23,069 bases of DNA, from the IMG/VR virus record IMGVR_UViG_3300020182_000200, positions 1-23,069 of that record; one strand, written 5' to 3'. Positions 1-21,862 of the stretch are shown piece by piece. The position numbers were made by a program, and so were the translations under genes. The notes under the pieces are model-generated. The model saw only the letters and a list, made by a program, of their open reading frames with translations, was not told where the DNA came from and made no database searches. Numbering within the stretch: the first letter of the stretch is position 1; each line of letters starts with the position of its first letter. Origin of the DNA: a virus.

Positions 1-3000
1 CTTTCTTGAGGAATCTATTACTGTAGTTCCATTAATAGAAACGGTATTACTTCTTGCTGTGCCTGAAAGGTAGAGGTCTTTGAAGCGGTTGCCTATGCTT
101 CCAATGTCTAAATAAGCGTCAACCGCACCACTTTGGTTTCCTGGAGATATTTTATTTGTTCCTCCAGTAAGTGAAGCACCATTTGTTCTAGGGTCTAAAA
201 CTATTTTAGTAACAATACCAGAGTGGCTACCAATACTTCCAACTGTTGTGCCGTCTTTTGCAAACTCAACAATAGTACCATCACTACTGTTACGTCTAAA
301 ATAATGTCCTTCATTATTAACTGAAGTAACTAAACGACCTGTACTAAATATACGACCCCCTGCAACTGATGCAGATGTAGAAGTAGTACCCACTAACAAG
401 TCATTTGAAGAATTAATACGCATGGCTTCTAAGCCACTAGTACCGAATGCTAAAGCATCATTTGAATGAGTATATTGGACGTAACCTCTATATGCTTCAT
501 TTCCAGTTGTTCCGTCACCAAAAGCAAGAGTTCCAGAGTTTGTAGTTCCACTAACAATAGTTATTCCTGCAGAACCTGTTGTACCAACCACTAAATCAGA
601 AAATTGACTGAAATAACTTGATGGTGATGTATTTCCAATTCCAACGCTGCCACCATCTGTAATTCTCATCATTTCTACATCATTTGTAGTGCTATTTGAG
701 GTAGAGAAAACTAAGTCAGCAGCACCTCCTGTGGTTGATGCTGGAAAAGATTTTATTGAACCTCTAACTCCTGCACCTGCTCCTGAACTATCAGAGCTAT
801 AAAATTCTAAAATACCAAATGGTGTTGTTGTTGAATGTGCAGAATCATTTTGTGTAGATGATATACGGATTGTTGCTCCGTCTGTTGATTTAGAAACTTC
901 AAGTAACTCACTACTAGAGATAGTTCCTGCAAAAGTAGCGTTACCTGTTGTTTTAGCTATACTTAATTTTTCATCACCATTTTCTGTTAAGAATTGGAAT
1001 CCACCTGCATTATTATATATTCTAACTCTATCTGTTGAGCCAGTCCCATTGTAGTCCATTAATATTGCAGTTGGATTAGTGTCTGTACCTTTTAAATGTA
1101 TTTGGTCATTTCCATTACTCTCAGCAGTAATTGCACCACTAGAGATAGTTCCTATGTTGGATAAATTACGAGAAGCATCCAAGATTTGTGTGCCATCCAT
1201 CTTAATATTGCCATTAAGAAAGTTGATACCTGATTTACCATAAGTAGTTCCTGCACCATCAATCTCAATACCTGTATCCCATTTTAATTTTAGCTGTTGA
1301 TAATTTGGAGAAGACCAAACACCTGCTGTTCTATAAATGCCATACTGATTAGTTGTATGCCAAAAAATACCTTCTTCTGTTGATGTGGTATGACCAACTG
1401 TTGCACCTGATTTAACTGTACCAAAGCCAAGTCTTGAAGAATCAGTAAGTTGTATGCTGTCAAAGTTTGATGTGCCACTACTGTCTATAGCACCACTAGA
1501 GATAGTTCCAATATTGGTTAAGTTTCTTGAGGAATCTATTACTGTTGTGCCATTTACTTGATAAACATGACCACTAGAAATATCAAGGTTTGCTTGTGCA
1601 AGAATATTAGTATAGCCTTCACCTACTTGTAAATTAGTTCCGCCAGTGTCTCCCTCTAAAGCTCTATTGTTGTTAAAATAAATTCTATTGTTACCACCTG
1701 AAAAATATAAACCATCATTTGCAGTATTTATGTTTACATTACCTGAGGTTGTAATCGTTCCACTAGAGATAGTTCCTGCAAAGGTGGTGTTAGTATTATC
1801 AGCTATATGTAATGCCTGAGTTCTTGAAGTATTTGTCCCAACCCAAAACATGATACCTTGATTTGAATCATTATCGTAGTTAAATAAGTGTAACCCCCTA
1901 CCCACGCCAGTACTTTGGTTAAGCCCAGACATACCCTTATGATAAGCACCACTACTAGGTGCATAATCCATTGATATTGTTTTTGCATAGCCTGTTGTAA
2001 TATTGTCTGTTGATGTAATAGCACCACTAGAGATAGTTCCAGTAGTTTCTAAATTACTACTTCCAAAAGTAATACCATTACCACAAGAAATACTTAGTTT
2101 ATTATTAAAAACACCTTCGTAACCAATACTTGCATCAGTTGTAGCACCATCTTTAAAAGTAATAAAGCCTTGAACTGCTGAATCAAGTATGATTTCACTA
2201 GCACTAGATGTAGTGCCAATCAAACTTAACTTAGGTAAAGAATCTGTTATTTTTAAACCATCAGTTTCATTGTAGGTGAGATTAGCTTCACCTCGTATTC
2301 CTGTTGAACCTGTAGAAGTAACTATTCTATCGTCACCACTATCAACATAAGAACTAATTGCATTAGCAGTCCATTGTAAATTACCACTTGTATCACTTTT
2401 TAATATATAGCCACTTACACTAGGGAATGAAGGGAATGTATAGCCTTCAATCGTTGCACCTGATATATCGCCTGTACTTGTAATTGCACCACTAGAGATA
2501 GTTCCATTAAAAGTTGCGTTACCATTACCTGCAATGTAAAATCTAGGAGTTAATACTGTATTTGCTGAACTATTTTGTGGGCTAGTCCAAACTTGAAATT
2601 GTCCATATGTATTGTCATCTGCTTGAAGTGCTATAGCAGTTGCACCTGTTACACCGCCCCATGTATTAGCTTGTTTAGGACTATTAGAACTTAGAGAACT
2701 ACTTATATTTACACCGAAAACTTGTCCTGCAAAGCCAACACCTAACGAAGAATTTAATGAAGGAATGACCACTAAATCTCCCACTCCATTAGATGCGGGA
2801 GAAGTATCTAGTGTAAAAATTCCTGTACTAGTTATAGCCCCACTAGAGATAGTTCCGATATTGGTTAGGTTTCTTGACTGGTCAATAATAGTTGTTGCTG
2901 CTGTTGTAGATGAGCCAACTTGAAAGTTTCCATTTACATCTATTTTAAAACGTTGATTTCTTGTATTTGCACCAGTAGAAAAAGAAACACCATCATAGCC

Positions 3001-6000
3001 ACTAATACAAATACCATCAGCAGAACCTCCGTTATGGTCTTCTGCTGTAATGGAGCAATTATAAGTAAAACCATCTCTGAAAAATATTCCTGCACCACCA
3101 CCACTTGTAAATGAATTTAAGTTTAAATTTGTTCTTGAGGAATTTATTACTGTTGTCCCTGAAATACCAATTGAACCATTAACATTAAGTTTATCTGTAC
3201 CTGTATTTACACCAATACTTACATTACCACCACCCATTGCAAGAACTACTCTGTCTGATGAGTACCAGTTTAATGCAGCATTTCCACCACTTGAATCCAT
3301 TATTAGAAAACCTGAATCATCTGTACCCGCTTTAAGATTTGGTTGCCCTGAATATCTATTTAAAGTAACAGTAGGATTATTTCCAGTAGAATTAAAAGTA
3401 ATAGTGGCAGTGTTATTTATTGATGGTATATTTTGTAAGGCTTTTGAGGAATCTATTACAGTTGTTCCATTAATAGAAACGGTATTACTTCTTGCTGTGC
3501 CTGAAAGGTAGAGGTCTTTGAATCTTAATCCGCTTTGTGCTAAATCTACTGCACCATCAGCACTAGGTTCAAATCGTGGTTGCCCTGATGCTGTTGATGT
3601 TACTGCTCTTACATAATTTGATTGGTCTGCACCAAGATTAACAAGACCACTTGCACTGTTATAAGAAGCAGATGTTCCTGAAATAGATGAAATACTTCCA
3701 ACTGGTGAGCCACTTTTATTAAACTGTAGAATAGTTCCGTCAGAGCCTGTTCTGTTCATATAAACAGCTTGACCATCGTGTCTACTAAATGCTGAATAAA
3801 CTGTATTAATATTTTGCCCAGTATCAGCAGAGGTGTTGCTGCTAGAGTTCCAAAGACTATTATTGGTTGTGTGTAATAACAAGTTGCCTGAAGAATCTAT
3901 TGCCATTTGGTAAGAAGCACTTGCGGCAGTACCAAAGCCCATTATATTTGCAGAGTGGTCGTATGTAATTAACCCTTGATAACGACCTGTTCCTGACGTT
4001 GCATCGCCAAATCCAATATAGTTTTTCCCCGATGTACTACTTGTTAAATTAATTTGTGCATAAGTGTCTGAGGTGTTTCCTACATTGAGTACTGGTCCTG
4101 TTTGATAACTGACAGGCGAATCAGTCCCAATTCCAACGTTGCCTGAAGGATTTATTGTTAATCTTATAGTGCTTGAATCTATAGGGTCACTAGCATTAGC
4201 AACTCTAAATCTCATTCCATTAGTTCTATCTGCTGTTATAGTTCCTACATAATAGGTATTATCAGTAAATTGTAATTGAGAGCCATCTGCATTATTACCA
4301 CTATTAGCCAGTCTAAATACAGCAGAGCCTGTTCCTGCTGTATTGGAGTTCCAAACTCTTGATACAACACTTCCTCCTGCACTTTTTTTAACATCTAAAT
4401 CAAGTGTAGTTGATGCTGTACCTATAGCTAGGGAGTTTATATTAGTTAGGTTTCTTGAGGAATCTAAGAAAGTAGTATTAGTTAGTTTTAAATCGCCATC
4501 TCTTGTTAATGTTAAATATTTAGAACCCCAACTATTAAATAAAATAGCATTTTCACCAGTATCCATATATAAACCAACATAAGCACTGTCACCAGACCTA
4601 TAAACTTTAAGCTGATTTCCATTAGTAATAGTATGCCCACCACTAGAGATAGTTCCAACAGTTATATTTGGAGTACCTGATAAACCTATTGCAGTTATAC
4701 CTAATGCATTTATTTCAGCTTGAGTTTGGTCTGTAGTTGCACCTGCTTCTATTCCATCTAGCTTAGTTCCATCTGTCGCTATATCTCTACCATCAACTGT
4801 ACCTGTAACACCTATATTGCCTGTTACATTTAAAGGATGCGAAAAATTAAAACTATCATTACTTGTATTCCAAGTTAAGGTAGCATCTTGGGTAGCACTT
4901 ACAGCATCCTGAATAGTAATACCTGCTCCGTTTGCATTAGCTGAAGTATCACCAGTTCCATAGTTAAGGGTTATGTTCTTATCTTTGACATCAAGATTTG
5001 CAGTATCTATTGTGGTCGTAGTACCTTGTACGTCTAAATCTCCTTGAATGACTACGTTGTTTGTAAAGGTTTTTGCACCATCAATACTTGAAGCAAGTGC
5101 TAAAGTAAATAAAGCATCACCTGATGCAAAATTTGCACCTCCTGTTAAACCACTATTTGATGCTGTTGTAATTTGAACTCTAGTAATATCACCTTCAGGT
5201 GCTACCTGAGAACCACTACCATCTCCCACATAAAAACCATCACCACTTGGGTCTGTTACAGATAATACTCTTGGTGCTGTAGAGCTGACATTATTATTTG
5301 TTGTGTCATAACTTGTATCTGTTGTTGATACTGTTGCCTTAATTCTATGGGTTGTACCTGTACTTATACCAGTTAATGTCAATCCAGTAGATGCTAAAAT
5401 AGTTCTGCCATCTGAGTCTACACAACCAAGATTTAAAGATGTGGTTGTTGTGGCAATAATTATGACACCACCCTGACCGCCAATAAACAATTGTTCAGTT
5501 TCAGTATTTATTTTATATTCATCTGATAAAGGAGTCGTTTTTGGATTTAATCTATCATTAACCCTTGTAAATGTGTCTGTAACAACAGTTGCATAGTTAG
5601 AACCGCCATCACTTGAATGTTGTATTGTTAGGGTAAAGTTTTCAGGCACTTCCGCTTCTGATTCATCTATAGCTGTATTAGTAGAACTATCATCACTATT
5701 ACCACCAAAGTTTGTATCAATACTTACTGAAACATCAACATCTGTATCTTCTGTTACTGTAATTTCTTCGTATTCTGTATCTGCATCAAAAGTACTAGAT
5801 ACTGTAGAAACTTTTGTTCCTGTTGTTAAGGATATTTGCGATAAAGCTGAATTACTAAAACCAGTTTCTGAATCAAAATATACTGTTCCATCTGTTAGTT
5901 TTAATACTAAGTTTTTAGCAATAACTTTACCTGCTTTATCTACAGAGAAACTTGCATTTGCTGGTGCTTCATTACCTGACCAAAATCTGTAGTCACCAGT

Positions 6001-9000
6001 TCCAGCCATTTTTGCAATCTCGCCTGAACCTGCAACACCTGCTGTAAAACTTTTTGTTGTTTGCACTTCACCAGTATTAAGTGCTTTAAAAGGAGCTGAT
6101 GCAAAAGATGTATTGCCTAAATAAATACCATTACCATCAACAGTAAATATTTCTGAGCCTGAACCTATTTGTATTTTAGAATCGGCTGCTGTATTAGTAA
6201 GAGATGTTTCACCTAAAGTAAAGCCACCAACTTCACCTGAAGTAGCAGATATAACACCTGTTGAAGATACAGTAAATGCACCTGAACCTAAATTGATTGA
6301 TGATGAAGAACCATTAATAGTGATACCTGAATTATTAATAGTTACATCACCACCACTTACAGTTACATTAGCTGCGTTTAAAGTACCTGTATCTATATCA
6401 TTAGCACTAATAGAACCAAATACACCTGATGCAGAAGTTAATGTTCCTGCTTCAATTCTATCTGCATTGATATCACCTGCTATTATTTTTGCACCTGCGA
6501 TAGTTCCGTCTACAACTAAATCACCAGTTTGGAAATTTGTGATTTCTACAAAAGAACCACCACTTCCTGAAGTACCTGAATATTTATAGGCTTTAGATAC
6601 TTTAGGTGAAGCACTGGTATTAACCATAATTAAGATATCATCTTCAATTGGTAATCTTCCGTGTGCTGTATTAAAAGCTGAATCTGATAATGCTGTAGTC
6701 GTTGAACCTTCTACATGGAAATACCCTGAGAATATCGCGTCAATATCAGTTGCTTCTACTTTAGTAAATGAGCCACTAGTTTGACTTGATGCACTTGATT
6801 CTTTATCAAAGAAACTTACTGCTTTAACTTTAAAATAATATGTTGTACCTGCTACTAATCCATCATCAATACCAAAAGATACTTTTTGAGTAACACTTGG
6901 CACACCTGCTATTGTTCTTACTAAATTAGTTCCGTCATTAGGTGTGAACCCTGAACTGGTTGACCTATAGATTTTTATATCTCTTAAATCGCTATTATTA
7001 GGGTTAGTCCAAGATAATCCTATGTTAAGTGGTTTACCTGTTGTTGCAGACAATGAAGTTGGTGCAGATGGTGTAGTAATACCTGCATCTGAATTAGTAT
7101 TGATAGTGACTTCACTTGTTACAGCACTAAACACGTTATTTGCTGAAAAATGTCTAGCTACTATGTAATAAGTTGAATTAGGTTTGACATTAGGAATAAT
7201 CTCCTTTGTTTTACCTTTACCTGCTATAGCTGAACTTATGTATGTACCTGAAGCAGTACCATATAAGATTTCAGTTCCTTGTATTAAATCATCTGTATTG
7301 TTTGTCCATTGAACTTGTAAATCATAACCAGTGTTAACTAAAGTTGCTGATACTGATAAGTTGGTTGGTGCAGTTACTGTAAAACTACCTGTAGAAACGC
7401 TTGAGCCTTCGTCTATTGGGTTTGTATAACTACTTGAAGCAAAACTATATACAGAAGAATCAATCTCTTTAAGGGCGAGTCTCGTTGCTAAGATTGGAAC
7501 ATCATCTGTATCTATAACTTCTAAATTTGTGCTTAAAACTTCAAAAGTTTTGTTGGTATATCCTAATCTTTCATTTGTTAAGTAAACCCAGTCAAAAGGT
7601 TGTAATTGCATAAAAGCGATATTACATAAAACAGATAAACTTACTTCTTGCCTTGTATGTAATAAATAGGTTCTTTGTAATCTTTGTGCCATTGTAGTTG
7701 TATCAGTAAATGGCAACTGTATTTCTAAAGTCTTTCTATAATTAGCTTGTGATTCTCCACTTGGGGTGTCTGCACTTAATAATGTACTATCTGTATAAAC
7801 TGGTGAATCAGTTGCAACATAATTATTATTAGCATCAACATAAACAGACTTAACCGTGTTATAAGTCTCACCACTTGCATTTTTTGTTGATATAGCAATT
7901 GGTGCTAATAAATTATCATCAGTTATGGTCATATCAGGCGTTACGGTTGCACCTGCAAACATTACAAACTTTCCATTGATATATGACAACTTACCTGCAC
8001 AAGAACTTAGTAATCCTTGTATTACACCTGCACCATCTGCAGTCATATTAGTTATACCATTGGCTTTATACAGTTCTTCATTAAATGTAATAGTTACTCC
8101 ATCTGCTATGGTTTGTGCAGAAGATAAAGTAATTAAATTACCACTTCTAGCTATTACAGTCGGTGAGTTTGATATTCCTGTACCTGTTACTGTTTGACCT
8201 ATATCTATAAGTGTGTTTGTTGAAGCAGTATCTATTGTTAATGTTGTTGAACTTGTTACAGCACCATTAACTGTAGCTGTGGTTATTGCTCCTGCAGGTG
8301 TTTCACAAATATTTGCTGCTGATGAGAATCCACCTACTGCTGTTGTATCTAATACCTCACTAGAGGTAGCTTTCAATCCATAAGTTGTGTCTGTTATAAA
8401 ATCTCTAATACAAAGAGCAGGATTATCTGACCAAGCTGTAGTTGATGTTCTTGGGTCATAAACTTTTTTACCTTTAATAACAAAAGCTAATGGTGGAATA
8501 CCACCGCCAAAGGCTTCTGAATCAAATACCATTTCAATAAGCATATAAGCCATGCCTGTGAACTTATCAGTATTTCCTAAGGATGTGTTGCTAGTAATAG
8601 TAGAATCAGCACTAGATTGTGACCCATTTAAAAATCTATATCTTAGTAATGAACTGCTTACATCAAATTTATTTTCATTTTCACTATTAGTAAATCTGCT
8701 ATTTGTAGCATAATTAAAACCACCGCTTACTGTTGTTGTTAATTTTGTATCATTTACTAATACTTCTTCTAAACTTTCTACTTCGTGTCCTGCAAGAACA
8801 ACAATCATAGATATCTTATAGTTATCTGTCCCTGAAGTTTCTATATGGGTTATTGTTCCACCAACTCTAGCTTTACCATAAATTATTTGTCTTGGTCCTG
8901 CTGAAGTTCTTGTTGCTACTTTTGTACCAAAGTTTTCAGCAGTAGCTTGTGTGCCTTTTGACATTAAACCGCCAATAAGTGTTGATGCTGCTGAAAGTGC

Positions 9001-9159
9001 TGCTAGTGATAACGTACTTACACCACCTAAAAATGCACCTGCTGCACTAAATGAACCTAATGCAAAAAGACCTGCACCTTGAAAAACAAAAGCAAGACCT
9101 GTAGTTATCGCAAAAGTAATAACAAAAACTTTAACAGCTGCTTTGACTGCCTTACCCAT
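1..9159 (-). CDS. Giant gpJ-like tail tip / tail fibre protein (partial, C-terminus outside window)
   Basis: Reading the minus strand codon by codon from ATG at 9159 gives an open frame to the window edge: 3053 codons with no stop seen. The start overlaps the preceding stop codon (ATGGGTAA). Residues about 5-68 are hydrophobic. Residues 92-102 read IIYGKARVGGT, as in phage lambda J-type tip proteins; more J-like sequence follows to about residue 575. Two fibronectin III-like domains lie at about 592-685 and 692-800. A VDGTIAGAKI segment (about 877-907) leads into the fibre. Residues about 1366-1487 hold the phage-fibre words TTTTIDTANLDVKDKNITLN and DGTKLDGIEAGATTDQT. From about 1500 onward the chain is Gly/Ser/Thr/Asn-rich with repeated GTISSG and VIDSSRNL words and GNVGIGT modules. 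It probably forms the trimeric central tip and receptor-binding fibre. Such fibres often end in a self-cleaving S74 chaperone domain, which would lie outside the window. Confidence 0.9.
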   Translation of the reverse strand, partial: MGKAVKAAVKVFVITFAITTGLAFVFQGAGLFALGSFSAAGAFLGGVSTLSLAALSAASTLIGGLMSKGTQATAENFGTKVATRTSAGPRQIIYGKARVGGTITHIETSGTDNYKISMIVVLAGHEVESLEEVLVNDTKLTTTVSGGFNYATNSRFTNSENENKFDVSSSLLRYRFLNGSQSSADSTITSNTSLGNTDKFTGMAYMLIEMVFDSEAFGGGIPPLAFVIKGKKVYDPRTSTTAWSDNPALCIRDFITDTTYGLKATSSEVLDTTAVGGFSSAANICETPAGAITTATVNGAVTSSTTLTIDTASTNTLIDIGQTVTGTGISNSPTVIARSGNLITLSSAQTIADGVTITFNEELYKANGITNMTADGAGVIQGLLSSCAGKLSYINGKFVMFAGATVTPDMTITDDNLLAPIAISTKNASGETYNTVKSVYVDANNNYVATDSPVYTDSTLLSADTPSGESQANYRKTLEIQLPFTDTTTMAQRLQRTYLLHTRQEVSLSVLCNIAFMQLQPFDWVYLTNERLGYTNKTFEVLSTNLEVIDTDDVPILATRLALKEIDSSVYSFASSSYTNPIDEGSSVSTGSFTVTAPTNLSVSATLVNTGYDLQVQWTNNTDDLIQGTEILYGTASGTYISSAIAGKGKTKEIIPNVKPNSTYYIVARHFSANNVFSAVTSEVTINTNSDAGITTPSAPTSLSATTGKPLNIGLSWTNPNNSDLRDIKIYRSTSSGFTPNDGTNLVRTIAGVPSVTQKVSFGIDDGLVAGTTYYFKVKAVSFFDKESSASSQTSGSFTKVEATDIDAIFSGYFHVEGSTTTALSDSAFNTAHGRLPIEDDILIMVNTSASPKVSKAYKYSGTSGSGGSFVEITNFQTGDLVVDGTIAGAKIIAGDINADRIEAGTLTSASGVFGSISANDIDTGTLNAANVTVSGGDVTINNSGITINGSSSSINLGSGAFTVSSTGVISATSGEVGGFTLGETSLTNTAADSKIQIGSGSEIFTVDGNGIYLGNTSFASAPFKALNTGEVQTTKSFTAGVAGSGEIAKMAGTGDYRFWSGNEAPANASFSVDKAGKVIAKNLVLKLTDGTVYFDSETGFSNSALSQISLTTGTKVSTVSSTFDADTEYEEITVTEDTDVDVSVSIDTNFGGNSDDSSTNTAIDESEAEVPENFTLTIQHSSDGGSNYATVVTDTFTRVNDRLNPKTTPLSDEYKINTETEQLFIGGQGGVIIIATTTTSLNLGCVDSDGRTILASTGLTLTGISTGTTHRIKATVSTTDTSYDTTNNNVSSTAPRVLSVTDPSGDGFYVGDGSGSQVAPEGDITRVQITTASNSGLTGGANFASGDALFTLALASSIDGAKTFTNNVVIQGDLDVQGTTTTIDTANLDVKDKNITLNYGTGDTSANANGAGITIQDAVSATQDATLTWNTSNDSFNFSHPLNVTGNIGVTGTVDGRDIATDGTKLDGIEAGATTDQTQAEINALGITAIGLSGTPNITVGTISSGGHTITNGNQLKVYRSGDSAYVGLYMDTGENAILFNSWGSKYLTLTRDGDLKLTNTTFLDSSRNLTNINSLAIGTASTTLDLDVKKSAGGSVVSRVWNSNTAGTGSAVFRLANSGNNADGSQLQFTDNTYYVGTITADRTNGMRFRVANASDPIDSSTIRLTINPSGNVGIGTDSPVSYQTGPVLNVGNTSDTYAQINLTSSTSGKNYIGFGDATSGTGRYQGLITYDHSANIMGFGTAASASYQMAIDSSGNLLLHTTNNSLWNSSSNTSADTGQNINTVYSAFSRHDGQAVYMNRTGSDGTILQFNKSGSPVGSISSISGTSASYNSASGLVNLGADQSNYVRAVTSTASGQPRFEPSADGAVDLAQSGLRFKDLYLSGTARSNTVSINGTTVIDSSKALQNIPSINNTATITFNSTGNNPTVTLNRYSGQPNLKAGTDDSGFLIMDSSGGNAALNWYSSDRVVLAMGGGNVSIGVNTGTDKLNVNGSIGISGTTVINSSRTNLNLNSFTSGGGAGIFFRDGFTYNCSITAEDHNGGSADGICISGYDGVSFSTGANTRNQRFKIDVNGNFQVGSSTTAATTIIDQSRNLTNIGTISSGAITSTGIFTLDTSPASNGVGDLVVIPSLNSSLGVGFAGQVFGVNISSSLSSNSPKQANTWGGVTGATAIALQADDNTYGQFQVWTSPQNSSANTVLTPRFYIAGNGNATFNGTISSGAITSTGDISGATIEGYTFPSFPSVSGYILKSDTSGNLQWTANAISSYVDSGDDRIVTSTGSTGIRGEANLTYNETDGLKITDSLPKLSLIGTTSSASEIILDSAVQGFITFKDGATTDASIGYEGVFNNKLSISCGNGITFGSSNLETTGTISSGAITSTDNITTGYAKTISMDYAPSSGAYHKGMSGLNQSTGVGRGLHLFNYDNDSNQGIMFWVGTNTSRTQALHIADNTNTTFAGTISSGTITTSGNVNINTANDGLYFSGGNNRIYFNNNRALEGDTGGTNLQVGEGYTNILAQANLDISSGHVYQVNGTTVIDSSRNLTNIGTISSGAIDSSGTSNFDSIQLTDSSRLGFGTVKSGATVGHTTSTEEGIFWHTTNQYGIYRTAGVWSSPNYQQLKLKWDTGIEIDGAGTTYGKSGINFLNGNIKMDGTQILDASRNLSNIGTISSGAITAESNGNDQIHLKGTDTNPTAILMDYNGTGSTDRVRIYNNAGGFQFLTENGDEKLSIAKTTGNATFAGTISSSELLEVSKSTDGATIRISSTQNDSAHSTTTPFGILEFYSSDSSGAGAGVRGSIKSFPASTTGGAADLVFSTSNSTTNDVEMMRITDGGSVGIGNTSPSSYFSQFSDLVVGTTGSAGITIVSGTTNSGTLAFGDGTTGNEAYRGYVQYTHSNDALAFGTSGLEAMRINSSNDLLVGTTSTSASVAGGRIFSTGRLVTSVNNEGHYFRRNSSDGTIVEFAKDGTTVGSIGSHSGIVTKIVLDPRTNGASLTGGTNKISPGNQSGAVDAYLDIGSIGNRFKDLYLSGTARSNTVSINGTTVIDSSRK
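6..84 (-). repeat. 79-bp direct repeat, copy near the window edge
   Basis: Positions 6-84 match 3444-3522 at 77 of 79 bases by eye; both differences are near the Thr-Val codons. It codes FKDLYLSGTARSNTVSING followed by TTVIDSS. The offset is 3438 bases, exactly 1146 codons, so both copies are read in the fibre frame (residues about 3026-3052 here). Confidence 0.92.
911..4656 (-). repeat. In-frame GTISSG-coding short repeats, eight copies, in tail fibre gene
   Basis: The plus-strand word ccactagagatagttcc recurs at 1136, 1493, 1760, 2024, 2489, 2840 and 4640, with a one-base variant (ctactagag...) at 911. On the coding strand it reads GGA ACT ATC TCT AGT GG, giving Gly-Thr-Ile-Ser-Ser-Gly. 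Distances between copies (225, 357, 267, 264, 465, 351 and 1800 bases) are all multiples of three, so each copy is read in the same frame. Synonymous positions are the same in every copy. Copies often follow an (N)LTNI word and precede A-I-T. Confidence 0.9.
3444..3522 (-). repeat. 79-bp direct repeat, internal copy
   Basis: Partner of the repeat at 6-84 (residues about 1880-1906 of the fibre protein). The protein around both copies is also related: GNVGIGT/GSVGIGN, a GFGD or AFGD segment, an SSGNLL/SSNDLL word, GSDGTI/SSDGTI, GSPVGSI/GTTVGSI, then RFKDLYLSG. A whole module of about 220-240 residues is therefore duplicated, with only the last part nearly identical in DNA. Confidence 0.9.
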
Positions 9160-16244: not shown

Positions 16245-16436
16245 TTAATTAAAAAATACTCTTTCTATGAGTAAGCCAAACATGGAAGTAATAATTAAAG
16301 CGTACTGACCATAAATGAGATTATCAAGCTTATCAAATCTCTTTGAGCCACTTGCTAATCTGTTGTCTATGTTTTCATAACGAATAGCACATTCACGTTC
16401 ATGTGCTTCTAGTTTGCTTATAGTTCCACTTGCCAT
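16245..16436 (-). CDS. Small membrane-anchored protein, possible holin/XhlA-like
   Basis: A 63-residue protein with a charged helical N-terminus (KLEAHERECAIRYENIDNRL, residues 8-27) and one likely C-terminal membrane segment (YALIITSMFGLLIERVFF, about 45-62). This layout, an amphipathic coiled-coil helix followed by a single membrane helix at the end, is that of XhlA-type haemolysin/holin accessory proteins and some spanin-like phage proteins. No dual-start motif or lysis neighbours are seen. It lies among head-tail connector genes, not in a lysis cassette, so a role in lysis is only a guess. The ribosome binding site is weak. Confidence 0.6.
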   Translation of the reverse strand: MASGTISKLEAHERECAIRYENIDNRLASGSKRFDKLDNLIYGQYALIITSMFGLLIERVFFN

Positions 16437-16453
16437 AAATCTATTCTATTCCA

Positions 16454-17194
16454 TTAATTCTTTATGTACAACATAATAAACGAACCTGAAACACCATGCG
16501 TACCAGCACTAGCAATACAAGTTAATTTGCAATCTGCTTTTTCAGGTATAACTTGTGGTAATTCTATATCAAACTTTAACGCATCTGTTGTAAATGTACC
16601 TTTTTCTTTTGTTTGATAAACACCACCAAATTCTTTACATTTAACTCTTGCTGTTAAATATACAGAACCTTGTATGTTTGATGAAAAATCCACTTGGTAT
16701 AGATAACCTGTATGACCTGAGGGAACAGTCCATACTGCCATAAGTGTTTGGTTTTCACCTGTAGATATTTTTGCTAATGATGTTGCAGGAACACCTGAAG
16801 ATACAGCACCAGTTCCCATATGGATACCACCTGCGTTTGCACCGCCTGTACCTGCTGTTAATACTTTTGCTCTAAATACTCTTAAATATGAATTAGTTGT
16901 ATTAACTGCTGTTTGTCCATTTAAGGTAACAATCTCTTCTATCTCGTTATAATCCCCATCCAAGCCACTGAGACGCACTGTCCTTGCACCTGTGCCATCA
17001 CTTGTATCGTTTGTATTAGTTGATGAAACTTTGATTACACTGGCTTCTGTTAAAGCGTCATAATCACTACCATTATCTGAAATAGTTACTTCTGTATTAC
17101 CAACAGAAGGGTGGAAACCAAATTTATAGAGACCTTTGGTTTTATCCCACCTTCCTTGTCTTACTTGTAGACCTAAAAAGGAATTTATAGACAT
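16454..17194 (-). CDS. Probable virion structural protein (capsid-associated)
   Basis: A 246-residue beta-rich protein of a type common after the capsid gene in environmental phages, usually listed as hypothetical or virion structural. Seen are SDNGSDYDALTEASVIKVSS (about residues 39-58), DGTGARTVRLSGLDGDYNEI (66-85), VTLNGQTAV (88-96), a Gly-rich GTGGANAGGIHMGTG stretch (about 114-128), and a closing half with QTLMAVWTVPSGHTGYLYQV (148-167) and PEKADCKL. No enzyme motif, signal or membrane segment is seen. It may be a capsid decoration or head fibre-type protein. The ATG directly follows the upstream stop with an AAGG site inside it. Confidence 0.65.
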   Translation of the reverse strand: MSINSFLGLQVRQGRWDKTKGLYKFGFHPSVGNTEVTISDNGSDYDALTEASVIKVSSTNTNDTSDGTGARTVRLSGLDGDYNEIEEIVTLNGQTAVNTTNSYLRVFRAKVLTAGTGGANAGGIHMGTGAVSSGVPATSLAKISTGENQTLMAVWTVPSGHTGYLYQVDFSSNIQGSVYLTARVKCKEFGGVYQTKEKGTFTTDALKFDIELPQVIPEKADCKLTCIASAGTHGVSGSFIMLYIKN

Positions 17195-18069: not shown

Positions 18070-19284
18070 TTACGCTGTTACTTTAAGTTTTGTTATAGCT
18101 TCAGGGAGAATCACTTGACCACCAACTCTTCTTCTAGCAATGTATCTTACATTTCCAGTAGTAGCTTGTGTAAATGGGTCTCTTAAAACCGCTAATGATA
18201 CTCTATCAACAATCATATATGCTCTTCTGAAGTCACCATAAGCAACTGGGAAAGCATTTTGTGCGATAGATGCCATGTCTGTAGCTTCCACATAAGGCTG
18301 TCCAAGAATAGTGTTAGTAACACCACCTTGTAAAGACATACCTGCTTGGAATACATACTGACCTGCAGTATCTTTAAGTTTTCTTACAGCTGCTAAAGTG
18401 CTTCTGTTAAATACAAAAGTACCATTTCTGCCATAGTCTGACTTAATGTTATGAACCAAAGTAATAAGGTTATCAGCAGTAATTGCTGTGTTAGAACCTG
18501 AATCTATAGAACTAACAGAACTGTTAGTCATAAATCCTTCAGGTTTTCCAACAGCGTTACCACTTACGAAAGCTGCACCTTCAGCTTTTGCAAATTGCTC
18601 TGCAAACTCTGACTGCATTTCAGCTTCTAAGTCAAATACTGAATCTTCTAAGTCTTGCTCAGAAATATCTACTAGAGCATATTGCTCATGAGCAGGTAAT
18701 TCTTCTAGACCTACATTATATCCAGTTGTTTCACTTCTAGTTCCACTTTCTGCTACCCACTGTGCTGCAAATGTACCAGTTCTTTTTGGAACTTGAATAC
18801 TTCTACTAGCAGTGCTTCTGATTCTTGCAATACTTCTGATTGGGGATATTTCAGTAACATCTTTAATCAGTTCTCTTACATATTCAGGTGGTGCTAAATA
18901 ACCACCAGTTGAATCATTACTTACAGTTAATGCTTTCTTCTCTACTGGGTCAAGACCTTCCAGTCCTTTTCTACAGTAAGTGTCAAATGCACTCATATAT
19001 TCATCTACTTGCTTAGATTCAAAACCTGAGTTTGGTCGTGTTACGATTGTCTCTAGTTTCTCAATTTGGCTTTTGATGTTATCAGCGTTAAGTTCAGCAG
19101 TTGTTAGTTTTTGATTAATGTCTTCATAAGAATCCATCTTAGCTTCCATCTTAGCTAATTTCTCATCCACTAATGCTGTGCTTTCGCCTTTTTCAATCTG
19201 CTCTAGTCTTTGGTCATTTACTTTTTTAAATTCTTCAAAAGTTTGACCTAAGTCTGTTATAGCATTTTTTATATCTTCCGACAT
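18070..19284 (-). CDS. HK97-fold major capsid protein
   Basis: A 404-residue HK97-type major capsid protein. Residues 1-85 are a charged coiled coil, the delta domain that acts as scaffold and is normally cut off by the protease. Then GLDPVEKKALTVSNDSTGGY (110-129) and LAPPEYVRELI lead into the shell. Further family marks are SIQVPKRTGTFAAQWVAESG (162-181; E-loop region), ALVDISEQDLEDS (203-215), GNAVGKPEGFM (242-252), and GDFRRAYMIVDR (350-361) near RDPFTQ (369-374) in the end of the P and A domains. It starts 12 bases after the protease stop with a strong AGGAG. No sign of fusion or truncation. The exact cleavage point cannot be told from the sequence. Confidence 0.95.
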   Translation of the reverse strand: MSEDIKNAITDLGQTFEEFKKVNDQRLEQIEKGESTALVDEKLAKMEAKMDSYEDINQKLTTAELNADNIKSQIEKLETIVTRPNSGFESKQVDEYMSAFDTYCRKGLEGLDPVEKKALTVSNDSTGGYLAPPEYVRELIKDVTEISPIRSIARIRSTASRSIQVPKRTGTFAAQWVAESGTRSETTGYNVGLEELPAHEQYALVDISEQDLEDSVFDLEAEMQSEFAEQFAKAEGAAFVSGNAVGKPEGFMTNSSVSSIDSGSNTAITADNLITLVHNIKSDYGRNGTFVFNRSTLAAVRKLKDTAGQYVFQAGMSLQGGVTNTILGQPYVEATDMASIAQNAFPVAYGDFRRAYMIVDRVSLAVLRDPFTQATTGNVRYIARRRVGGQVILPEAITKLKVTA

Positions 19285-19296
19285 AATAATCTCCTA

Positions 19297-20229
19297 TTAA
19301 GATTTTAAGGTTAAAGTTAAGTTCTTTATGGCTTCTACCAATTCAACATTTGTATCAACATCGCGTTGACCGAATGCATCAGTGACAGCTTTTGCTGCCA
19401 TCTTTGCTTCTGAACGAGAAAGACTGAAAGCATCTCGCATTCCATTTTCCCACTCTCTAATAGAAATCTCTTCACCTTTCACTGAACGAACAGTTGCCTG
19501 AGGGTTCATGGGAAAGGTTACTAACGACACTTCCATCAAATCTACTTCTTTAATAATACGTTTGTTACCACGTTTATCATATGAAACTTCTTTTGGGTTT
19601 ACTCTAAAGCCTATTGATAGACCATCTAATGCACCCATTTTTAATAATTCGTATGCTTCCGCACCTGCTTGTGTTTTAAGAGCTAATCTACCCTTAACAA
19701 CTAAACCATGTGCATCTTCTTTTATCTCATCAAACACACCAATAGGCATATCAGATTTATGTTGATATAAAAGTTTTACATTTTGTGGTTTTCTTCTTTT
19801 TAAAGATTTTGCAAACGCACCTGCTTCAATTACATCATTACCTAAGTCTTTGTTTCCAAAGACAGAACCATAACCTTCAAATGTTCCATAGTTCTTATCT
19901 TCTTCATCATCGTTGTAGGCTTTAATACTGGATTTGATTTCTATAGATTCTTTTTCTACTTCTTTAGAATCCATATCATCTTCAGTTTCTTCAGAATCAG
20001 GTTTGCTTTTACCAAACTCTATAATGTAAGAGTCATCTGTTTCTTCTACTGCTCTTATGTGTTTTTCATCATTCTGTGTAGAATCTTCTTTGTTTGAATC
20101 GTACTCATTAGTACAGACAGCTAATCGTTGGTCGGAATCTGTATATTCACTCGCCATAGTGTCGTCTCCCATACATCTAGTTATAAAATTTTGCCTTGAC
20201 TCATTACTGTTAGGTTTTGGTATTGGCAT
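19297..20229 (-). CDS. HK97-type prohead protease (U35 family)
   Basis: A 310-residue protein. The start ATG at 20229 (MPIPKPNSNESRQNFITRCM) is preferred over a TTG at 20319: the N-terminal motif is a known phage one, with QRLAVC and acidic linker following, and the upstream extension would run over the divergent promoter. The protease domain spans about 98-250: GYGSVFGNKDLGND (119-132), LLYQHKSDMPIG (153-164) with likely catalytic His157, and LDGLSIGFRV (201-210) with likely catalytic Ser205; DLMEVSLVTFPMN (230-242) is the usual closing strand. It would cut the capsid delta domain inside the prohead. The C-terminal 60 residues resemble a short scaffold-like helix region. It lies directly before the capsid gene. 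A weak GAAG precedes the ATG. Confidence 0.9.
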   Translation of the reverse strand: MPIPKPNSNESRQNFITRCMGDDTMASEYTDSDQRLAVCTNEYDSNKEDSTQNDEKHIRAVEETDDSYIIEFGKSKPDSEETEDDMDSKEVEKESIEIKSSIKAYNDDEEDKNYGTFEGYGSVFGNKDLGNDVIEAGAFAKSLKRRKPQNVKLLYQHKSDMPIGVFDEIKEDAHGLVVKGRLALKTQAGAEAYELLKMGALDGLSIGFRVNPKEVSYDKRGNKRIIKEVDLMEVSLVTFPMNPQATVRSVKGEEISIREWENGMRDAFSLSRSEAKMAAKAVTDAFGQRDVDTNVELVEAIKNLTLTLKS

Positions 20230-20303
20230 AATTACTTCATATAGTATCTTATTGAATAGATTTGCACAATATATAGGTATATTAAAAATAATTAAAATAA
20301 TTC

Positions 20304-20333
20304 TTGCATAGTATTCCAATTTGGGGTTATACT
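20304..20333 (+). promoter_or_regulatory. Sigma70-type promoter for the plus-strand island
   Basis: TTGCAT at 20304-20309 and TATACT at 20328-20333, separated by 18 bases. Transcription would start near 20340, giving a leader of about 36 bases before the first ATG. It lies in the divergent gap upstream of both the plus-strand gene and the protease, and near-consensus elements are rarer than chance AT-rich matches here because both hexamers fit with correct spacing. Confidence 0.55.
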
Positions 20334-20353
20334 GTGTACATAATAAATTGATA

Positions 20354-20370
20354 GCCGAAAGGCAAGGAAG
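20354..20370 (+). promoter_or_regulatory. Ribosome binding site with small GNRA-type hairpin upstream
   Basis: AAGGAAG at 20364-20370 lies 6 bases before the ATG at 20377. Directly upstream, GCC GAAA GGC (20354-20363) can form a 3-bp stem with a GAAA tetraloop. The stem is too short to be sure of. Confidence 0.5.
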
Positions 20371-20376
20371 AATAAA

Positions 20377-20661
20377 ATGAAAAACTATCTAACACAAAGA
20401 GAATACACAGGAGAAAACATTTTGACTCTTGAATCATTAGGATTTAATGAAGATGATTCTTTTGTAACATTTAAACAGGCTTTAAAAATTGATGGAATCA
20501 CAGGTCAATCTTTAAAAGGTCTAAAAAAAGCAGCAACTCTTATCTTTTATAAAGAAGAAAAAGATAAAGAAACTGGAGAAAAGAAAAAAATTAGAAAATA
20601 TTTCTCAGTCTTTAACGCTGCGGAAGTATTATCAAGAATTGAAACTAACAAGGCAGCTTAA
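20377..20661 (+). CDS. Small ArdC N-terminal-like (antirestriction-type) protein
   Basis: A 94-residue protein on the plus strand. Residues 10-46 (YTGENILTLESLG, then SFVTFKQALKIDGITG) and 47-82 (KGLKKAATLIFYKEE, then RKYFSVFNAAEVLSRIE) follow the pattern of the ArdC N-terminal domain: a Y-x-G-x-N start, TFKQA, a K-G-x-K turn, a long charged strand pair and the closing VFN. ArdC is a plasmid antirestriction protein whose N-terminal domain binds single-stranded DNA; the usual C-terminal metallopeptidase-like domain is absent, and the first helix is shorter than usual. A role in protecting entering DNA is plausible but not shown. It starts a two-gene island opposite to the structural genes, with a promoter upstream and a terminator at its end. 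Confidence 0.68.
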   Translation: MKNYLTQREYTGENILTLESLGFNEDDSFVTFKQALKIDGITGQSLKGLKKAATLIFYKEEKDKETGEKKKIRKYFSVFNAAEVLSRIETNKAA

Positions 20662-20676
20662 GGCTGCCTTTGTTTT
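20650..20676 (+). terminator. Intrinsic terminator overlapping the end of the ArdC-like gene
   Basis: AAGGCAGC (20650-20657), loop TTAAG, GCTGCCTT (20663-20670), then TGTTTT: a perfect 8-bp stem plus U-rich tail on the plus strand. The stop codon lies within the loop region. It sits in the 26-base gap before the next plus-strand gene, so it probably works as a partial terminator or attenuator. The minus-strand direction has no T-run. Confidence 0.75.
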
Positions 20677-20687
20677 AAGGATATAAA

Positions 20688-21056
20688 ATGACTAAAAAAA
20701 TTAAAGCAATACTAATTGACCCAGTTGACTGTTCTACTTCATACATTGATATAGATGATAATTTAAAATCTTTTTATAGCATCATGGATTGCGATTTAAT
20801 AGATGCACAGCAAATTGGATTAGACACTGTTATGTATTTTGATGATGAAGGTAAATTAAAGAATAACCAAAGATACTTTCAATTCACAGTTGCAAATCCG
20901 ATAGCATATTGTGGCAGATGCATAGTAATAAGTTCTGACGAAGATGGTGGCAATGATGATGTTAAAATTGATATTGATGTTTTAACAAAACAAATTGAAT
21001 GGTTACCTGAAGGTTATACTGAAGAACCTTATATGGAGTTTATCCCTCTTAATTAA
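20688..21056 (+). CDS. DUF3846-like protein
   Basis: A 122-residue plus-strand protein matching the DUF3846 layout: KAILIDPVDCSTSYIDIDDN (about residues 6-25), SIMDCDLIDAQQIG (about 31-44), MYFDDEGKLK (49-58), an ANPIAYCGRCIVIS strand (about 69-82), and DVKIDIDVLTKQIEWLPEG (91-109). The family is common on phages and plasmids, near DNA metabolism or antirestriction genes, but its function is unknown. AAGG lies 7 bases before the ATG, just past the terminator of the previous gene. Its stop codon at 21054-21056 overlaps the stop of the facing Mu F-like gene, so no terminator fits behind it and transcripts may run antisense into the head genes. Confidence 0.75.
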   Translation: MTKKIKAILIDPVDCSTSYIDIDDNLKSFYSIMDCDLIDAQQIGLDTVMYFDDEGKLKNNQRYFQFTVANPIAYCGRCIVISSDEDGGNDDVKIDIDVLTKQIEWLPEGYTEEPYMEFIPLN

Positions 21057-21862
21057 TCCATGTCACGTTCATCAGCGTAGATAATCACACATCTACAGTT
21101 GATGACGTTGGCAACTCCACCTTTTGAGTCTCCTGCATAACCCATTGGCATTCCACCAACTATAAAGTCTTCATTCATATCTACAATTTGACCATTAGCT
21201 GATGCATGTGTTGACCTAGTTCTGCCATCACTTGTTGCAACCCATTTCTTTAACATCTTTATTCCTAAGTCTGTTTCTACAGTTTGATGATAAGAGTGAT
21301 TAGCAAAAGAAGCAGCATTATGAGTTTCTGTTCTTGAAATTAAAGCTGCTCTACTTCTGCTTATAGATGTAAACTTTGTTGATACTAATTTAGCAATCTC
21401 AGGCAAAGTTAAATTATCTGCCCTACCTTGTTCTATTAACCTACTAATTCTGTTAGCCATTCTTGTACTTATACCTGCAAGTATTAATTGTCTTGAATTA
21501 AAATATTGTTCAACCACTGCTTCAAAGTCTGTGCTTCTTCCAAAAACAAAAGCATCATCTTTTTGTGAATTATAATAAGTTTCTTCGTTAGATTTATAAA
21601 TCACTTGGAGTGTTCTTCTGTAATGACTTAACATCAAAGGCATAAAATCTTCATTTAAAGATTGAGTTGCTACATCATTTTGATATATCCCATATTCTTT
21701 ATAAAGATGTAATTGAACTCTTACAAATTTTCTAAACAAGGTGTCTAATCTTTTAAAAAATCTTTTTTCTAGGTTATTTCTAAGAGCAAGTTGCCTTCTT
21801 GATTCTTTAGCAGCACTTATTCTTTGTCTATAAGTATTAAATCTTTTTTGATTTAACTTCAT
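21053..21862 (-). CDS. Mu F-like minor head / head morphogenesis protein
   Basis: A 269-residue protein of the phage Mu F-like (SPP1 gp7-type) family. The N-terminal half is helical and basic. The conserved C-terminal domain shows RAALISRTETHNAASFANHS (171-190), KKWVATSDGRTRSTHASANG (205-224) and PMGYAGDSKGGVANVINCRC (239-258), the three standard blocks. These proteins enter the capsid in a few copies and help DNA packaging or ejection. The ATG overlaps the portal stop as ATGA, the normal portal-F arrangement. The next minus-strand gene, the protease, is about 820 bases away because the plus-strand island lies between. Confidence 0.9.
   Translation of the reverse strand: MKLNQKRFNTYRQRISAAKESRRQLALRNNLEKRFFKRLDTLFRKFVRVQLHLYKEYGIYQNDVATQSLNEDFMPLMLSHYRRTLQVIYKSNEETYYNSQKDDAFVFGRSTDFEAVVEQYFNSRQLILAGISTRMANRISRLIEQGRADNLTLPEIAKLVSTKFTSISRSRAALISRTETHNAASFANHSYHQTVETDLGIKMLKKWVATSDGRTRSTHASANGQIVDMNEDFIVGGMPMGYAGDSKGGVANVINCRCVIIYADERDMD

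Follow-up and report, generated by a model that had tools for sequence, protein, structure and literature searches.

A likely early-regulon cassette placed antisense in a gene-turnover hotspot of the head operon of an uncultured marine phage

In SIRV2 and other archaeal viruses, small and variable early genes lie behind one conserved promoter-regulatory sequence, which in some cases contains inverted repeats, and the HTH repressor Aca8 is thought to shut these genes off (PMC11065993). In the establishment regulon of the conjugative plasmid pLS20, ardC and a set of variable genes are distributed over several operons, each of them directly behind EGeRS1, a GC-rich and highly structured element of 420-750 bp that ends at the ribosome-binding site (PMC8708921). 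In P2 and P4, small high-turnover loci occur between pairs of conserved phage genes; they hold prophage or satellite defence systems near cos, and the available part of that account describes neither a promoter common to an early operon nor an antisense placement in a head operon (PMC9122126). As for the ArdC protein of R388 (6i89/6sna), its N-domain binds single-stranded DNA and its metallopeptidase domain was reported to be dispensable for antirestriction (PMC7213743), the ArdC-N domain being related to the DNA-binding hairpin domains of Rad4/XPC (PMC5512222).

The locus described here belongs to an uncultured marine tailed phage, and consists of a pocket of small genes between the MuF and prohead protease genes. 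It resembles the SIRV2-type regulon in its variable small genes, common regulatory sequence, putative HTH repressor and inverted repeats, and pLS20 in that the same regulatory sequence stands directly before variable genes, an ArdC-type gene included. The archaeal systems, however, have TATA/BRE promoters and tested anti-defence genes, whereas the present one shows, besides candidate counter-defence genes, a sigma-70-like promoter with a hairpin leader and a pocket lying antisense in the head operon, and its regulatory block is AT-rich and only ~75 bp long, in contrast to the pLS20 element. The likeness to the P2/P4 hotspots lies in the high turnover between two conserved genes. Among open papers, none was found that describes a tailed phage built in this way, with the pocket lying antisense in its head operon.

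The window, by which we mean the whole stretch of DNA analysed, is a virus record of 23,069 bp whose - strand carries portal, MuF, S78 prohead protease and HK97-type capsid genes. Between MuF and the protease, two ORFs run on the + strand (Table 1). The preliminary description had recognized there an ArdC-N-type and a DUF3846 gene, an assignment that holds at the curated Pfam cut-offs: ORF1 matches ArdcN (PF08401) over profile positions 36-123 of 123 with E 2.1e-6 and 28.4 bits (cut-off 22.6), and ORF2 matches DUF3846 (PF12957) with E 9e-11 and 42.3 bits (cut-off 27.5). Values of dN/dS are 0.09-0.40 for ORF1 and 0.03-0.36 for ORF2, and purifying selection acts on both. On one side of the island, the stops of ORF2 and MuF overlap in a 4-bp TTAA (21053-21056). 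On the other side, the mechanically called protease ORF begins at a TTG at 20319, whereas the conserved start is the ATG at ~20229, with an N-terminus (MPIPKP) conserved in relatives; moving the start to this ATG leaves a divergent control region of ~150 bp. The stretch before the protease reads TTGTGC-N17-TACTAT (window 20229-20281, - strand, and relatives too) and ends less than ~15 bases from the ATG; it may be a late promoter whose leader is very short. At the far end of the window (1-9159, - strand), a single ORF of at least 3,053 aa runs off the record, with a tail-tip (host-specificity)-like start followed by long repetitive fibre-like sequence. By capsid, the best named relatives are remote, with 50% to Rhizobium phage RHph_X2_25. 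A scan of 84,980 genomes revealed no close provirus and relatives in MAGs at 31-38% only, and neither island protein had a tblastn match among 50,697 phage records.

Table 1. Features of the island and its borders in the window
Feature	Positions	Strand	Basis
Cassette promoter, -35 TTGCAT (20304-20309), 18-bp spacer, -10 TATACT (20328-20333)	20304-20333	+	sequence, relatives
Box with inverted repeat, CCAATTTGG, within the promoter spacer; candidate operator for a small HTH repressor-like protein	20316-20324		similar boxes in relatives
Leader hairpin GCC-GAAA-GGC, directly 5' of the Shine-Dalgarno sequence	20354-20363	+	stem kept in relatives
Shine-Dalgarno sequence AAGGAAG of ORF1	20364-20370	+	conserved
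ORF1, compact ArdC-N-domain protein, 94 aa	20377-20661	+	PF08401 match, dN/dS
Intrinsic-terminator hairpin overlapping the ORF1 stop (TAA in loop), between ORF1 and ORF2	20650-20670	+	scan, relatives
ORF2, DUF3846 protein, 122 aa	20688-21056	+	PF12957 match, dN/dS, pLDDT 82 model
Head morphogenesis gene of MuF type, bordering the pocket on the left	21053-21862	-	PF04233, E 1.5e-13
S78 prohead protease, start reassigned to ATG at ~20229	19297-20229	-	PF04586, E 2.9e-34
Conserved control region 5' of the protease ATG (CTATATATTGTGC...ATACTATATG), right border of the pocket	20229-20281	-	kept in filled and most empty sites

The cassette promoter does start at 20304, as originally placed, and its TTGCAT-N18-TATACT arrangement is conserved across relatives; in a generic promoter scan it was too weak to register. 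This promoter opens a block of ~75 bp before the first cargo gene, which comprises TTGCAN, a spacer of 17-18 bp that holds an inverted repeat (CCAATTTGG and CCCATTATGGG are examples), TATAAT or TATACT, a leader hairpin and a Shine-Dalgarno sequence. In relatives, the TTGCAN/TATAAT arrangement precedes unrelated cargo genes and also the early operon. Between the window and L155, the 75 bp before the ATG are identical, whereas the downstream part, a different gene, shows 53% identity, about what unrelated AT-rich DNA yields in such a global alignment. Such a break behind the block, with other genes following, is also found in L013, L004, L005 and L007. The pairing of the leader stem is kept as GCC/GGC, GCT/AGC, GCCC/GGGC, GCTC/GAGC or ACTC/GAGT, a covariation that counts as supporting evidence only, since it comprises few independent change events. 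The pockets of L051, L059, L038 and L018 have a second type of promoter, in which the box lies upstream of the -35, here TTTACA, and phages of the L089/L090 type show an arrangement different from the block. With a rigid promoter pattern, full contigs yielded no hit, and the search then relied on looser patterns and on local alignment. Scans for the exact leader among 2.9 million viral contigs gave 27 stretches, and those examined are located at the MuF-protease pocket, in an early operon or in another late-region pocket. The pocket of G007 (L138) contains three copies of the block (6708, 7337 and 8349), one before each of three genes. There is also a second accessory pocket of the late region, between genes of ~592 and ~350 aa (G001 16333-16863, G002 19127-19856, L157 957-986), with the same box or leader in sense orientation.

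The turnover of the pocket was followed in 80 viral contigs with a related MuF gene, 64 of which also have the protease. Among the 64 junctions compared besides the window, 49 are filled with 1-6 small genes and 15 are empty, the MuF stop lying 0-65 bp from the protease; at most empty sites this stop runs directly into the conserved pre-protease stretch (CTATATATTGTGC...ATACTATATG). Clustering of the pocket ORFs gave 53 families, 47 antisense and 6 sense relative to the head genes. The short sense ORFs (families 11, 12, 34, 35, 44 and 50) overlap control regions, MuF or antisense genes, and were for this reason rejected as probably spurious. What is left are ~47 cargo families, essentially all antisense to the head genes, in 38 distinct antisense contents (some truncated by contig ends). 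Opposite-strand genes had been taken for a rarity in this position, and they turn out to be the rule at this junction. The suggestion of a self-contained and exchangeable cassette fared better, as the island carries its own promoter and leader and is missing from many relatives. Judged from these comparisons, the MuF-protease junction is a hotspot of gene turnover, and the protease control region may represent a transcription-unit border that lets the pocket fill harmlessly.

Does such an island deserve the name of moron cassette, as initially given? Its accessory nature stands, with absence at the 15 empty junctions; the promoter is conserved, but the terminator proved to be intercistronic. 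A classical moron would be expressed in lysogeny and benefit the host cell or defend it against other phages. A promoter of its own, a terminator and a position on the opposite strand are traits of this kind, and variable defence-gene hotspots between conserved phage genes are documented for P2/P4 (PMC9122126). The lysogenic sense of the term is nonetheless improbable here: the island promoter is common to the early operon, neither integrase nor resolvase was found in ten relatives (whose records may be incomplete), the genome scan gave no close provirus, and PADLOC returned no match for the six proteins tested.

A recognizable domain is present in few of the checked cargo families. A Pyr_excise-like gene (T4 endonuclease V type; 28.2 bits against a cut-off of 23) is a common cargo, found in the pockets of L038, L066 and L072, and in G003 (L134), where the MuF-protease pocket is empty, a gene of this type lies antisense at a second late-region site (31707-32195). 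In L018 and L024 the pocket holds a 259-aa protein with an HExxH motif (HEVAHH) and a sub-threshold SprT-like match, which looks like the metallopeptidase half of ArdC without ArdC-N; elsewhere the same pocket holds ArdC-N without the peptidase.

The window has no early region, and the link with the early operon comes from relatives, chiefly G001. In this near relative, an ERF-type recombination gene (PF04404, E 8e-23) lies on the strand opposite the late genes, together with RecB-like and SSB-like genes (assigned by reading of the sequence) and an operon of small ORFs. When the window block was locally aligned with G001, the island reached a score of 71, the head of the early small-ORF operon 41 and the next best place 19, against a maximum of 18 in 12 dinucleotide shuffles. 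The corresponding scores were 29 (early operon), 27 (island) and 22 (third site) in G002, and 31, 25, 24 and 21 (three island copies and one early copy) in G007, with shuffles reaching 18 in both. Block sites above the shuffle maximum number two in G001, three in G002 and four in G007, so that in each of these genomes the same regulatory sequence precedes several unlinked small-gene operons. No site was detected by this alignment in G003 and G009, which have empty junctions, or in G004, which has the second promoter type.

Four intergenic boxes of the inverted-repeat kind were located in G001, at the early operon, the island, the gene at 16417 and the promoter of a 69-aa HTH protein, in which the box sits directly after the -10, and such a box occupies the same position in G002, L005 and L013. 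Homologues of this protein gave weak HTH_3 matches in six of nine cases and matches to a PHROG repressor profile in four of nine (best 1e-4); this small repressor-like protein would bind the short candidate box. Moreover, the early operon of L088 and L089 begins with the very pair of ArdC-N and DUF3846 genes, followed by homologues of the early small genes of G001, L090 being similar. With its promoter-leader found again at the front of the early operon, and its gene pair at the front of that of L088/L089, the cassette very probably belongs to the early regulon, in line with the early character first attributed to the island. Altogether, the island is likely to be an early-regulon cassette that sits antisense within the late (head) operon, at a hotspot. 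G001 (27448-28695) and G002 (28762-30006) also encode what reads as a ParB-like domain joined to a DNA methyltransferase domain, which may give these phages one more means against restriction.

The location among head genes admits another view of ORF1, in which it would be packaged in the virion and injected as a polyvalent-type ArdC-N protein, made together with the head proteins; injected polyvalent proteins do include ArdC-N and MuF-C domains (PMC5512222). This view is scarcely credible, given that ORF1 runs against the direction of the head operon, that it depends on the early cassette, and that L088/L089 carry the same pair in the early operon.

An island terminator had been predicted as well, and a perfect hairpin exists, but it stands between ORF1 and ORF2 and not at the end of the island. 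Two terminator-like sites were counted against 0.2 expected by chance, both corresponding to the two strands of this one hairpin. A strong terminator-like hairpin is present at 11 of the 12 ArdC-N loci, in pocket as well as early-operon contexts, with compensatory change at two pairs. After ORF2, the scanned stretch from 21056 up to 21200 contains no terminator-like site. One could think that the island serves above all for antisense transcription, in which a + strand transcript would enter MuF and portal and delay late head expression, the proteins being secondary; the lack of a terminator-like site in this stretch, the overlapping stops of ORF2 and MuF and the nearly invariable orientation of the cargo are in keeping with it. 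We consider this highly improbable, as the terminator after ORF1 would stop most read-through, the 15 relatives without an island retain the head operon, and both ORFs are under purifying selection.

Cargo moves between the early region and the late pocket. Six families (c5, c7, c18, c31, c41 and c49) also occur outside the pocket, mostly in early regions, with c7, c18, c31, c41 and c49 found in the early regions of other relatives, and DUF3846, with one copy in each of G001-G004, occupies three different positions among them. In L091, whose structural genes are of another kind, ArdC-N and the pocket gene c17 follow a GCCGAAAGGCAAGG leader and are antisense to the structural genes around them, and in L097 and L099 the ArdC-N/c17 pair follows a capsid-like gene in sense orientation. 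Comparison of the window with L008 gives mostly 95-100% identity for the cassette and 74-85% for the adjoining MuF gene, with synonymous divergences of 0.04 for ORF1, 0.37 for ORF2 and 0.83 for MuF. A cassette far less diverged than its neighbour points to recent exchange, and the shared 5' block may provide the homology that permits cargo exchange.

Regarding the function of ORF1, a profile of 12 relatives gave ArdC (6i89/6sna) as top PDB match with E 0.018, aligned over residues 50-127 of the R388 protein, and the VFNAAE of ORF1 falls on the VFNADQ squiggle of ArdC. The AlphaFold model is of low confidence (pLDDT 57), and in the fold search ArdC 6i89 was the top match, with a non-significant E of 0.29. 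Unlike R388 ArdC, ORF1 is phage-borne and compact, lacks the first ~35 positions of the domain (first helix region) and ends with ArdC-N, so that the C-terminal HExxH metallopeptidase domain is absent. The resemblance of ArdC-N to ArdC and to the Rad4/XPC hairpin domains suggests that ORF1 is probably a small protein binding single-stranded or distorted DNA through the ArdC-N beta-hairpin. By analogy with the domain, it might shield phage DNA from nucleases or restriction, a possibility we put forward with some doubt, and an anti-restriction role is perhaps conceivable on the same analogy; assistance to neighbouring ERF/SSB-type recombination genes appears somewhat unlikely. For ORF2, the confident model found no match in a PDB fold search, and a full-text search of open papers returned DUF3846 once, in a single paper.

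A broader version of the recombination idea would make both ORFs replication or recombination accessories, ORF1 being the ssDNA-binding helper of an ERF/SSB-type module with no role in host defence, and the cassette still being early. In L088-L090 the pair lies directly downstream of RecB-like, ERF-like and SSB-like early genes, the ERF of G001 is confirmed by its Pfam match, and ArdC-N is a ssDNA-binding domain (PMC7213743, PMC5512222). The pair is, however, missing from most relatives and replaced by unrelated genes at the same place; being dispensable and swapped, it is better explained by an accessory function than by core replication, and we consider this explanation unlikely. For the pocket as a whole, the cargo probably consists of anti-host or counter-defence genes, the term counter-defence being here guilt by association, as few cargo domains are recognizable and PADLOC found no match.

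Returning to the early-cassette reading, the 5' block, with its sigma-70-like promoter, spacer operator, hairpin leader and strong Shine-Dalgarno sequence, would drive any gene placed behind its ATG. The island genes would be transcribed early, ahead of the late operon, and shut off later by the HTH protein, by converging late transcription or by both. With a terminator over its stop, ORF1 would be the most expressed product and ORF2 a product of read-through, and both would act in the first minutes of infection on processes of the host or of the incoming DNA. As a tentative proposal, to which we give slightly less than even chances, this phage family would run a distributed early, probably counter-defence, regulon, with the block as a plug-in socket behind whose ATG unrelated small genes are precisely swapped, in the early operon and in antisense late pockets, under a single HTH regulator.

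If this proposal is true, the ~47 cargo families, which lack a known domain in nearly all the cases checked, would supply candidates for early proteins of anti-host or counter-defence function, and dozens of new counter-defence families could be sought with the 75-bp block as search key and bait, as in archaeal viruses. Antisense genes within a phage structural operon would then not need to be oddities: the pocket, sitting at a possible transcription-unit border before the protease, would hold early genes on the early strand.
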